DNA from: Halorubrum hochsteinianum | GTDB taxonomy: Archaea > Halobacteriota > Halobacteria > Halobacteriales > Haloferacaceae | NCBI RefSeq assembly: GCF_023702125.1 | Contig: NZ_CP098415.1 | Location: forward strand, 1,240,001 to 1,304,000 | Direction: 5' to 3' | Length of the DNA: 64,000 bases | Shown: positions 59,549 through 64,000 of the stretch, in pieces | How the letters are laid out: every line of letters begins with the position of its first letter | Position numbering within the stretch: position 1 is the stretch's first letter | Notes under the pieces: model-generated | What the model was told of the DNA's origin: nothing | Databases searched by the model: none | What the model saw: only the letters and a program-made list of their open reading frames with translations | Translations under genes and position numbers: made by a program

Positions 59549-59621
59549 GGGCGCGTAGCTCAGCGGACAGAGCACTTGGTTCCGGACCAAGATGCCGCGG
59601 GTTCAAATCCCGTCGCGCCCG
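59549..59621 (+). tRNA. tRNA-Arg (anticodon CCG)
   Basis: A complete cloverleaf of 73 bases. The acceptor stem is GGGCGCG pairing with CGCGCCC, with discriminator G. The D arm has GCTC-AGCGGACA-GAGC. The anticodon arm is CTTGG-TTCCGGA-CCAAG with anticodon CCG, reading CGG (Arg). The T arm has GCGGG-TTCAAAT-CCCGT. No intron and no encoded CCA. It marks the end of the GC-rich host backbone, and its 3' end is partly duplicated downstream. Confidence 0.95.
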
Positions 59622-59711: not shown

Positions 59712-60019
59712 TGCCGTTTTTTCACGAGTGTATTCGACTGTGCTTGTTCGACCGTCATTCTGTCCAGCAAGAGGATTTTTGTTCAACCGCGAAAATCTCG
59801 AAACTGAATGAGAGCATCGACGGCGAAAGAGGAACTGCTTGATAAGGGTTTACAGATCGACCATGAGCAGTTTGAACAGCTCTGTAAAATGGTGATCGAG
59901 CGTGCAGAGCCGACTCGTGAACTCGAATTAACGCCGTTCCGTGGCGATGGTGGAATCGATATTCACGCTGTCATCGATCGAGAACTGTTCCACGCGCGGC
60001 TCGGCGTACAAGCAAAACA

Positions 60020-60360
60020 GGCTTTGTTGAAATCCTCAGAAAGTGATATATCTGAGCTAGGTTCTGGTCCGTACAGGGAGTTTATTTAGCCTCCCAGAAT
60101 CTCGTCTGACTCACCATATGGTCTCTGAGAAAACGAAACTAATTGTTCTCGCCCTACTAGCAGGAGGTGCGTTTAGAGCCGCTGACCAGCAAGAGCCATT
60201 TTCAGTACTCTGGTTCTCTCTTCTATTCGGCAGTTTACTCAGCGGTGTGATTCTTCTCAAAGTACTCAAGAAGTACCAAGCTGAGAGATAACTTCGCACC
60301 CTTCAGCGACCAGTTGTTTCAGACGAGAATGTGTCTGAAGAAGAGGATTTCAACAGAGCC
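60020..60360 (+). mobile_element. 341-bp transposase-less element in the restriction gene
   Basis: Ends are GGCTTTGTTGAAATCCTCAG and (as complement) GGCTCTGTTGAAATCCTC, inverted with one mismatch over 18 bases. It is flanked by perfect 8-bp copies GCAAAACA (60012-60019 and 60361-60368). An 8-bp duplication and GGC-x2-TGTTG ends resemble the IS6 family. It encodes no transposase, only a 57-aa membrane-protein frame. Confidence 0.9.
60118..60291 (+). CDS. 57-aa two-helix membrane protein carried by the 341-bp element
   Basis: The frame MVSEKTKLIVLALLAGGAF ... LKKYQAER has two hydrophobic helices (about residues 7-20 and 28-49) and a basic C-terminal end. A TATA-like TTTATTTA lies 30-37 bases before the ATG, a normal haloarchaeal spacing. 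Below the size limit of most gene finders. Function unknown. Confidence 0.55.
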   Translation: MVSEKTKLIVLALLAGGAFRAADQQEPFSVLWFSLLFGSLLSGVILLKVLKKYQAER

Positions 60361-61733
60361 GCAAAACAATATGCTAGCGGTAACACCGTCGGTGCCCGCA
60401 CTCTTCGCGGATTTAAAGGCGCACTCTCAGAGCAACACTATCACATCGGAACGGAGATCACGACGTCCTCGTTCACCTCTGGAGCCGAGACAAGCGCAAA
60501 CCAAGATTTCATCCGGTTGATCGATGGTGACCGGCTCACGGACATCATGATTGAGAGCAGTATTGGTGTTGTTACAGACGACGAATCATACGAACTCGAT
60601 CCAACGTTCTGGAGTGTATTCGAGAAACCGGAGCGTACCGACACGATCCCGTCGCTAGAGGTACCACAGGCCGACAACTTTGACGTGATACGCACCGTCA
60701 TCCGAGCGGTAGATACGGGTTCGGATATCAAGCCCGATATCGCGGCATACGTTCGAAAACAGACGGATTCAGACACGTTCGATCCGCGGCAAGCGGATTA
60801 TTACGGTATTGCTGCGTGGCTCCTCCAGTTTCTCCACAAAGAACAGGAGATCGAAATCGACAACCGCACCATCCGTCGTTGGGGACTCACTCGGCTCGGC
60901 GAGGAATACGTCACACATCTCGATCGTGGCAATCGAGAATCCGCGGATGACCTTCTCACACAGCAGATCCGTGATGTCGAGATCATTTCCCGCGTATACG
61001 CTCAGCTAGAAGCAAACGGTACTCTCTCCCGACATGATATTACGGAGATTCTCGCCGCCGAAACAGATCTCTCGGATTCAACTACTCGTCGACGCGCTCG
61101 AACCGTCGGGCAGTGGCTCGTCCGCCTCCCTGAGATCACTACAAACGGTCGAGGATCCGAGCAACAATACGTCCTATCTTCGACGCCACGTTAACCGATC
61201 TTCGACGACTCATTCAGTAAAGTCAGAGAGAGTCTTTCGCCTTTGGTCATCCGGTGGAACGTTCGTGATGAGTACTTCCGAGACTTCCCCGCGACTGCTG
61301 GCATCACTATTTATCGAACGAGTGGCGTCTACGTAGCTGATCGAGAATACGTCGTGGTCTTCGTACAATACCGTGACTGGGGGTGAATTCGAGAGGACCA
61401 CGGAAACATCCATCTCCGTGAGTTCTATGACGATATCACGAAGTCGCCGTTGATCCTCTCGGTCGAATCCGCCTGCCTGATATGAATTGAAATCCGCCGT
61501 TTTCGACACCGGTTCGTACGGCGGATCTAAATATACGAGATCACCAACTGAAGCCTCATCGACGACGTAGCTAAAATCCGTATTGAATACCGCCGTGTCT
61601 TGGAGAACACGTGATGCCTTCCGAATTCGCTGCTCTTGTATCCAATCTGGATTGGAATATCGTCCGAAAGAGACGTTGAATTCGCCGTCACTGTTCTCTC
61701 GATACAATCCGTTGAAGCATGTCCGGTTCAGGT

Positions 61734-62338
61734 GGCCCTGTTGAAATCCTCAGTTATTGATAGTTCTCTGAGGTCGTGCTGAATATAGCGCGCAAGTCGG
61801 TCATGTGCCACTTGCCGTGGAGTGTGGGAATAGAGTAATAGACTTGAGGCGTGACTGTTACAGAGGTTTCTATGAGTAACATATATGATTAATCCATCAA
61901 CCGGCCTTAGGTAGCTTTATTTTCCGCCTATATCTACTGGCTATCACTTGACAAACCATGAGTTCCAACCAATCGCTCGAAATTCTTGCTGTGGCTATTT
62001 TCTATATGTGCGTGTTTGCGATGGTCATTGGACCGGCTCTTGAATCGCTCACCGGCTTGGAAACGCTCTCGATGGAAACTACAAGAGGCGTTGAACGTAT
62101 GTGGGACTTAGTCTCAAAGCCACAGGGCTGGGTTCTCTGTCTCGGCTACGTCCCAGTTCATTTCACGTATCTGATTGTCCGCGCGCGACTCGCCGGTGAA
62201 TCGGTTGACTCCTACTGGGGGTAGCGGTTCTCGATGCGTCATCTGACAAGGGCTGTGTAGCTTTCTGCGGGCGTGCTGAACTCACCCTCTGTATCTTGTA
62301 CACGACATTTGTCAGGCCCTGAGGATTTCAACAGAGCC
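61734..62338 (+). mobile_element. 605-bp transposase-less element in the methyltransferase gene
   Basis: Ends are GGCCCTGTTGAAATCCTCAG and (complement) GGCTCTGTTGAAATCCTCAG, the same family as the 341-bp element. It is flanked by perfect 8-bp copies GTTCAGGT (61726-61733 and 62339-62346). The interior shares no obvious sequence with the shorter element apart from the ends. It holds one 88-aa membrane-protein gene and no transposase. Confidence 0.9.
61958..62224 (+). CDS. 88-aa two-helix membrane protein carried by the 605-bp element
   Basis: MSSNQSLEILAVAIFYMCVF starts a first helix (about residues 7-28), a loop with TTRGVERMWDLVSKPQ follows, then a second helix WVLCLGYVPVHFTYLIV (about 57-73) and RARLAGESVDSYWG. 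A TATA-like CTATATC is about 25-30 bases before the ATG. It is unrelated in sequence to the 57-aa protein of the other element, but similar in plan. No family is recognised. Confidence 0.65.
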   Translation: MSSNQSLEILAVAIFYMCVFAMVIGPALESLTGLETLSMETTRGVERMWDLVSKPQGWVLCLGYVPVHFTYLIVRARLAGESVDSYWG

Positions 62339-62692
62339 GTTCAGGTATAACAGTAGGCTCGCCTCTCGGACTCGCTCGTCCTGTGTGAGAGTCGACTGTG
62401 TAAGGAGCGCATTGAACTCGGAGCGAGCGTTGTAGTAGTATTCTTCCGTATGCTCGTGCGTTTTGTTCTCGGTAATAAGGGCGTCCGGTTGGTCCCGAAC
62501 GATCTCATAAAACGTTGTTAGCCGCGTGTTCAGATCGTTAATCGTTCCATCGTCAGGATCCTGATCGAAAAAGACAGCACCACCACCGACGAACGGCTCA
62601 TGATACGCCTCATATGAGGTCGGAAACAACGCCGTGATTTCTGAGAGAAGCTGGCGCTTTCCACCCGCCCATTTCAATATCGGCTCCACCAT

Positions 62693-63135: not shown

Positions 63136-64000
63136 ATGATGTCGGAGAGTCACTTGCGGGTAATCTCTCAGCTCATAGATGGGGGTGACCCGGAAGTAAG
63201 TATCAGTACACTCGCTGACCAACTCGAGTGGAGTACCAGTCACGCCTCACGGATCATCACCGAATTAGAAACCTACGGCTGCGTCCAAACCAAACAAAGC
63301 GGTCGAGAAAAGCTGGTTTCTCTTACTGAAATCGAACCGATAGAGCAGCTCGAAGGACTCCTCACGGAACATCGTCATATGGACCTACCGGCACTCATCG
63401 CCGGCTCCGGATTACAAATTCTCTATTATCTTGACCGGGGACGGACGGCTACCGAATTAGCCGAGCGAAGTGGCGTTAGTCGGGCAACAGTCTACCGCCG
63501 GTTAGATGATCTCCAGCTAGTCGGTGTCATCGGGAAATCGAAATCTCGGTACCGTCTCAACGAGCCATTTACCGTATTGGCTTCTATCGCACGAGGACTG
63601 TTCCATCAGAAGCATCGCCGTGAAACACGAAAGCACGTCGTTGGACTCAATTTTCTCTGGGAAACGCACAACGAGTATCTCTTCGCGTGCGACGGCGACA
63701 TCAGCGCTGAAGGGTTTCATCCGACCGGACCAGCGCTGTTCGGTGAGTTTGATGTTCCACTGCTCACCCGTGACCGTCGACACTACTTCCGAACCGATCG
63801 AGTCACTGAGGTCGACCCCGTAGCGTTAGTCTGCCATACACTCTTGATCGATGACGGCTCTCGGTACCGAACGTACTGTCTGTTACTGATACAGAAACAG
63901 GATATCGATCGAACGGAACTGCGAGAGCGCGCTGAACACTATCACTCTGAGGCGACGACCGATTTACGCACTATCGTCGACGGCCTCATTGAATACTTGG
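63136..64000 (+). CDS. Two-winged-helix transcriptional regulator, 3' end outside window
   Basis: The frame is open from ATG 63136 (or 63139) to the window end (288 codons). The first winged helix is about residues 3-65 (VSISTLADQLEWSTSHASRIITELETYGCV), the second about 90-150 (ILYYLDRGRTATELAERSGVSRATVYRRLDDLQLVGVI). A C-terminal part includes RHYFRTDRVTEVDPVALVCHTLLIDDGSRYRTYCLLLI, whose role I do not recognise. Such proteins often accompany a second gene of a toxin-like or nucleotidyltransferase type; that gene would be beyond the window. Moderate GC, as in the island. Confidence 0.8.
   Translation, partial: MMSESHLRVISQLIDGGDPEVSISTLADQLEWSTSHASRIITELETYGCVQTKQSGREKLVSLTEIEPIEQLEGLLTEHRHMDLPALIAGSGLQILYYLDRGRTATELAERSGVSRATVYRRLDDLQLVGVIGKSKSRYRLNEPFTVLASIARGLFHQKHRRETRKHVVGLNFLWETHNEYLFACDGDISAEGFHPTGPALFGEFDVPLLTRDRRHYFRTDRVTEVDPVALVCHTLLIDDGSRYRTYCLLLIQKQDIDRTELRERAEHYHSEATTDLRTIVDGLIEYL

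Follow-up and report, generated by a model that had tools for sequence, protein, structure and literature searches.

A convergent restriction-modification pair in Halorubrum hochsteinianum has in all likelihood been inactivated recently by two separate IS5-type cargo cassettes moved in trans, as part of ordinary decay. The pair adjoins a tRNA-Arg gene, and its inactivation took place in the organism's own lineage through two insertions of transposase-less cassettes. In each cassette, a small cargo gene with a promoter of its own would be enclosed by transposon ends that an ISHla2-type IS5 transposase recognises in trans. The putative helper is an intact ISHla2-type copy on the second contig of the same genome. 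The double hit would then be no switch but ordinary decay at a defence locus that the host can do without. The locus belongs to NCBI RefSeq assembly GCF_023702125.1, contig NZ_CP098415.1; the window, i.e., the whole stretch of 64,000 nucleotides analysed, covers positions 1,240,001 to 1,304,000 of the forward strand, and coordinates given without a contig or locus label count from its first letter.

The interrupted pair and its intact relatives

The tRNA-Arg (CCG) gene was located by ARAGORN at 59549..59621 on the plus strand, and the tRNA stretch upstream of the pair is also retained in several relatives. The Mrr_cat nuclease gene occupies 59808..61194 on the plus strand (coding parts 59808-60019 and 60369-61194), and the Dam-class adenine methyltransferase gene occupies 61210..62692 on the minus strand (coding parts 62347-62692 and 61210-61733), both being identified by profile matches and orthologues. 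The nuclease gene is interrupted by element e1 (341 bp, 60020..60360), flanked by two copies of the target duplication GCAAAACA at 60012..60019 and 60361..60368. The methyltransferase gene is interrupted by element e2 (605 bp, 61734..62338), flanked by two copies of GTTCAGGT at 61726..61733 and 62339..62346. The elements were delimited by inverted repeats and duplication, and no strand is assigned to them or to the target copies. When the flanks were joined by script and one target copy was removed, open frames of 345 aa for the nuclease and 289 aa for the methyltransferase were obtained, with no stop codons in either. A sequence-only reading of this DNA had described both interruptions, the perfect 8-bp target duplications and the restoration of both frames to these lengths, all of which were reproduced.

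The rejoined nuclease matches Pfam Mrr_cat (E 2.9e-21, over the curated cut-off) and has a C-terminal match to DUF7226. The rejoined methyltransferase matches Pfam MethyltransfD12 (E 5.5e-61) and NCBIfam 'dam' (E 5.7e-79), both over their curated cut-offs. The structure prediction of the nuclease, with a mean pLDDT of 37 from 11 close sequences, was left out of the argument. Downstream of the methyltransferase, a further gene begins at 63136-64000, with two HTH matches at its N-terminus and an HVO_2833 C-terminal domain, and continues beyond the window end.

Of 51 other Halorubrum genomes, 11 encode a full-length nuclease that is 91-97% identical to this one, and a twelfth has a frameshifted copy. 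The convergent methyltransferase stands beside it in all 12 relatives at 92-98% identity, with the gene ends within ~25 bp of each other. Both genes are intact in 11 of these relatives, and the pair is intact in about a fifth of the sampled Halorubrum genomes. Neither insertion occurs in any of the 12. The remaining relative, G021 (L212, G021:C1:440709-444707), has a one-base deletion near the nuclease start and an intact methyltransferase; the reverse state, a broken methyltransferase beside an intact nuclease, was not seen among the 12. The H. hochsteinianum genome contains no further copy of this nuclease gene. A distant pair with the same convergent arrangement has 32% and about 45-50% identity. 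Pairwise dN/dS is ~0.07-0.09 for most comparisons of the pair; on the organism's own branch, the dN of the nuclease equals that of its sister, and the dN of the methyltransferase is slightly lower than that of L202. Since the frames contain no stops and dN/dS is not raised on the own lineage, both insertions are judged to be recent. The comparison with intact homologous loci in related haloarchaea, which had been proposed earlier as a check, found the pair uninterrupted in relatives and neither insertion shared with any of the 12; the rejoined frames have not accumulated stops, and the protein families match.

Family matches and linkage across genomes also bear out the earlier description of an Mrr-type endonuclease with a convergent Dam-class methyltransferase. 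Both families expected of a type II-like system are present and their genes are linked, and protection by methylation of the same site is putative. The constant convergent neighbour, found in all 12 close copies and likewise in the distant pair, argues against a methyl-directed type IV nuclease next to an unrelated orphan methyltransferase, in which case the two losses would be independent. We regard that explanation as improbable, although it is the best of those that compete with the preferred one: the nuclease domain matches the PADLOC type IV model mREase_IV, as a domain-level match only, and the Mrr of Haloferax was reported to be active on GATC-methylated DNA (PMC6471742). However, a cutter of Dam-methylated DNA would attack a genus that has Dam-like enzymes in every sampled genome.

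Fixed ends, variable interiors and a candidate helper

All four ends of e1 and e2 contain GGC(T/C)(C/T)TGTTGAAATCC, and the terminal pattern was matched four times in the window versus 0.05 expected by chance. Both elements have IS-type ends and target duplications, and a transposase is absent from both. Their ends had been described as nearly identical, which is correct for a common inverted repeat of 16-20 bp; beyond the repeat, e1 is a type A cassette (end classes AL/AR) and e2 a type B cassette (BL/BR). Since the end subtypes differ, the two insertions represent distinct elements rather than copies of a single one.

In the H. hochsteinianum genome, eight complete elements have these repeats and are flanked by 8-bp duplications, of which one contains a single mismatch. 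A full element copy on contig C2 encodes a 273-aa IS5 transposase, which matches NCBIfam IS5_2 (NF033579) with 218.7 bits, where the curated cut-off is 140, and this intact copy has a matching right end and repeat. Copies 93-94% identical to this transposase are annotated as ISHla2 and ISHxa2, and the GGCTCTGTTGAAATCC-type ends with an 8-bp target duplication fit an ISHla2-like member of the IS5 family. Relatives were found in 221 plasmid records, and a search for viral contigs bearing the family right end found none. On these sequence comparisons, e1 and e2 are placed among relatives of the ISHla2-type IS5 elements that lack a transposase, and an ISHla2-type transposase would move the cassettes in trans. 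B-type ends were not found around a transposase in any of the loci examined, so the helper for e2 is a guess from the common repeat. Two other candidate helpers were rejected: IS6 elements, whose repeats differ in those with resolvable ends, and IS1595, for which no match was obtained. The 3.06-Mb genome contains 20 IS6-type transposase matches, several of them with identical scores.

From haloarchaeal loci, 63 distinct elements were collected by repeats and duplication, a sample that leans to Halorubrum and to well-preserved ends. A near-full transposase is present in 11 of them and a remnant in one; the rest have none. In the alignment, the left end is informative over ~57 bp and the right end over ~70 bp, and past the informative stretch the type A ends fall to 0.05-0.3 bits per position. 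The ends form three clearly distinct classes, i.e., type A cassettes (n=39, including e1), type B cassettes (n=9, including e2), and transposase-bearing copies (n=8), which combine the type A right end with a left end of their own. Outside the transposase, the interiors are unrelated at blastn E 1e-5, with the exception of a 61-bp stretch in L080 and L118. At the protein level, few weak to moderate interior matches were detected, e.g., between two lipoproteins that are 28% identical.

The elements L058 from Halorubrum and L374 from a Haloferax gibbonsii plasmid have ends that are 98% and 95% identical around unrelated interiors, and such near-identical ends around different contents suggest an exchange of cargo. 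A whole cassette of 591 bp is 86% identical between L117 from Haloferax larsenii and L376 from a Haloarcula pelagica plasmid, and its occurrence in two genera suggests movement as a unit. Two further signs were discarded. A relic right end inside an autonomous element, considered as a general mark of cargo capture, occurs in only one of 11 elements (L014, positions 925-964), and the cassette L303 with its 96% copy in G031 could not serve as proof of movement because the copy's ends and duplication are not cleanly resolved. One cassette is nested within another at L363:1501-2868 (G014), each with its perfect 8-bp duplication. Family members of MITE size also exist, with the same repeats, a length of 124-125 bp and no ORF (L140, L143, L180, and L192).

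Cargo genes

Each of the two elements holds its own small ORF, a feature not mentioned in the sequence-only reading, and each ORF has two predicted membrane helices. The e1 ORF (57 aa, 60118..60291, plus strand) is preceded by a TATA-like box, TTTATTTA, at 60081..60088 on the same strand, read from the sequence; this ORF and box are the basis for regarding e1 as a passenger carrier. No relatives of the ORF were found in 52 Halorubrum genomes, and it may therefore not be a gene. The e2 ORF (88 aa, 61958..62224, plus strand) has relatives outside such elements at 80%, 56%, and 49% identity, one of them elsewhere in the same genome. Comparison with the relative L223 gave a dN of 0.105 and a dS of 0.69, values that indicate evolution of the e2 cargo under purifying selection.

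Membrane helices were called by hydropathy only. Among transposase-less elements of 300-700 bp, 20 of 27 have an ORF with a predicted membrane helix, where shuffles expect 3.0, and 11 have an ORF with at least two helices, where shuffles expect 0.06. In genomic segments matched for length and GC content, the corresponding values are 19% and 6.4%, and the enrichment over these segments has binomial p values of 8e-10 for membrane ORFs and 3e-7 for two-helix ORFs. An independent sample of plasmid cassettes, picked by their ends alone, contains two-helix ORFs in five of eight. In many cassettes, TATA-like boxes were noted by eye ~25-37 nt before the ATG.

Other cargo includes a PIN-domain toxin, HalOD1 proteins, SnoaL and SCO1 proteins, and lipoproteins, and most cargo has no Pfam family. 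A cassette at L010:1501-2467 (C1:1903321-1904287 of the same genome) contains a TumE-family toxin gene and an HVO_A0114-family HTH gene, which probably form a toxin-antitoxin pair. At L253:2084-4014 (G006), a Pycsar-like cyclase and a PycTM effector are found with an IS5 transposase remnant, family ends, and a perfect 8-bp duplication. The 35 membrane cargo proteins are mutually unrelated, and a strong match to a defence family was obtained only for the Pycsar effector. A general defence role of the membrane cargo is consequently not supported, with one strong match in 35. Expression and function of the cargo genes are predicted from sequence.

MITEs normally occur as amplified, near-identical copies. 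The view that these elements are ordinary non-coding MITEs, with small ORFs arising by chance in AT-rich DNA, would explain why the e1 ORF lacks relatives, why most cargo matches no Pfam family, and why an ORF is absent from some elements of 124-125 bp. It is nevertheless a poor explanation, to which we give little credence. The interiors are unrelated from copy to copy and the e1 ORF was met once in 52 genomes, in contrast to the usual MITE pattern. Moreover, membrane ORFs far exceed both shuffles and matched segments (20 of 27 against the 3.0 expected on the first count), TATA-like boxes stand ahead of many ATGs, the e2 ORF is under purifying selection with respect to a relative outside such elements, and recognisable genes occur as cargo. 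Most members of the family are thus best described, on their sequences, as cargo-bearing cassettes and not as non-coding MITEs.

Order of the losses and known systems

Loss of the methyltransferase beside an active nuclease had been expected to be lethal. This expectation is weakened, because another Dam-type methyltransferase, about 50-57% identical, occurs in 52 of 52 Halorubrum genomes searched, including that of H. hochsteinianum (C1:1909768-1910655), and cells may well survive the loss. If this second enzyme and the broken one have the same site, the DNA of the host would remain protected. In a published survey, a conserved Dam orphan methyltransferase of Halorubrum was assigned to GATC (PMC6471742). 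In most genomes, the second enzyme is matched in two pieces (residues 1 to ~75 and from ~75 on), which suggests a conserved inserted segment. The other part of the earlier argument, that the nuclease was hit first, would still be the simpler order; G021 is an example of such an intermediate, and the reverse has no counterpart among the relatives.

Two of the eight elements of the genome lie within 1.7 kb, with a probability of 0.03 under uniform insertion. This leaves room for a non-random cause, e.g., an insertion hotspot, and is not compelling for anything more than that a dispensable region tolerates insertions. The position of both hits in neighbouring genes, together with a Pycsar-like defence pair in a cassette elsewhere, might suggest that selection favoured the double loss (e.g., for DNA uptake) or that cargo genes replaced the lost defence. 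We consider this quite unlikely, given that the Pycsar effector is the only one of 35 membrane cargo proteins with a strong match to known defence. The weakest alternative, also raised as a switchable off-state by the sequence-only reading, is that the cassettes are kept at both sites and that precise excision toggles the pair; the otherwise undamaged frames restored on removal of each element with one duplication fit this, but any young insertion with a duplication would look alike, none of the 12 relatives has either insertion and so none shows alternation, the genome has no second nuclease copy, no sign of precise excision was found, the locus yielded no recombinase or excision enzyme, and a safe turn-on would require the two elements to excise one after the other in the correct sequence, which makes a switch very hard to credit.

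For the defence locus itself, the message is modest: a pair was lost recently, while other genomes keep it intact and one stands halfway to the loss. A wider reading, held at somewhat less than even confidence, is that haloarchaea possess an integron-like pool in which fixed IS5-type ends (57 and ~70 bp) repeatedly acquire new small genes, the majority encoding small membrane proteins and some belonging to defence or addiction modules, and are moved between genomes by a helper transposase; two such cassettes would have landed in a resident restriction-modification pair. If this is true, elements usually dismissed as non-coding debris would be archaeal carriers of small genes, and a search by their fixed ends would be an easy way to collect many small membrane proteins that are as yet uncharacterised. 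It could also be tested whether IS ends capture cargo, near-identical ends with unrelated genes pointing to cargo exchange.

In the open-licence literature, no earlier description of the cassette family was found. ISHla2 and ISHxa2 have a transposase 93-94% identical to the one described here, the same terminal repeats, and 8-bp duplications; in contrast, e1 and e2 have no transposase, and the left end differs after ~20 bp. As in the survey of halobacterial restriction-modification genes, presence of the pair is patchy and a Dam/GATC orphan is conserved in Halorubrum, whereas a convergent Mrr_cat and Dam-class pair with a double insertion was not met in the sections of that survey considered here (PMC6471742). 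The HqIRS families of Haloquadratum, haloarchaeal MITEs of which four of five are described as non-coding, and the ISH2-type HqIRS32, whose ORF was reported as expressed in Halobacterium, are likewise short and transposase-free with IS-like ends, but the HqIRS are repeated families, whereas the interior of the cassettes differs from copy to copy (PMC3119063). Hlac_3088 of Halorubrum lacusprofundi, a membrane-anchored protein proposed as a virus-exclusion factor, is a membrane-protein transposon passenger in the same genus (PMC10544981). There, unlike here, a transposase partner is present, and the likeness concerns the passenger.

The nearest precedent of the cassette family is the Bacillus MIC231/IS231 group. 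The MIC form consists of transposase-less transposon ends around a passenger gene. Here, IS-type ends and target duplications are found without a transposase, and a passenger gene unrelated to transposition is found for the family as a whole, the basis in e2 being coding conservation. Like MIC231 and IS231 (IS4 family, Bacillus cereus group), the family is modular and includes full-length copies with a transposase and passengers (PMC2266710 and references therein). It differs in having an IS5 rather than an IS4 transposase, in its occurrence in haloarchaea, in its 8-bp duplications, and in its two end subtypes. In IS231, extra DNA separates the left repeat from the transposase, whereas cargo here mostly follows the transposase, and this cargo is very small, single-gene, enriched in membrane proteins, and different in almost every copy.
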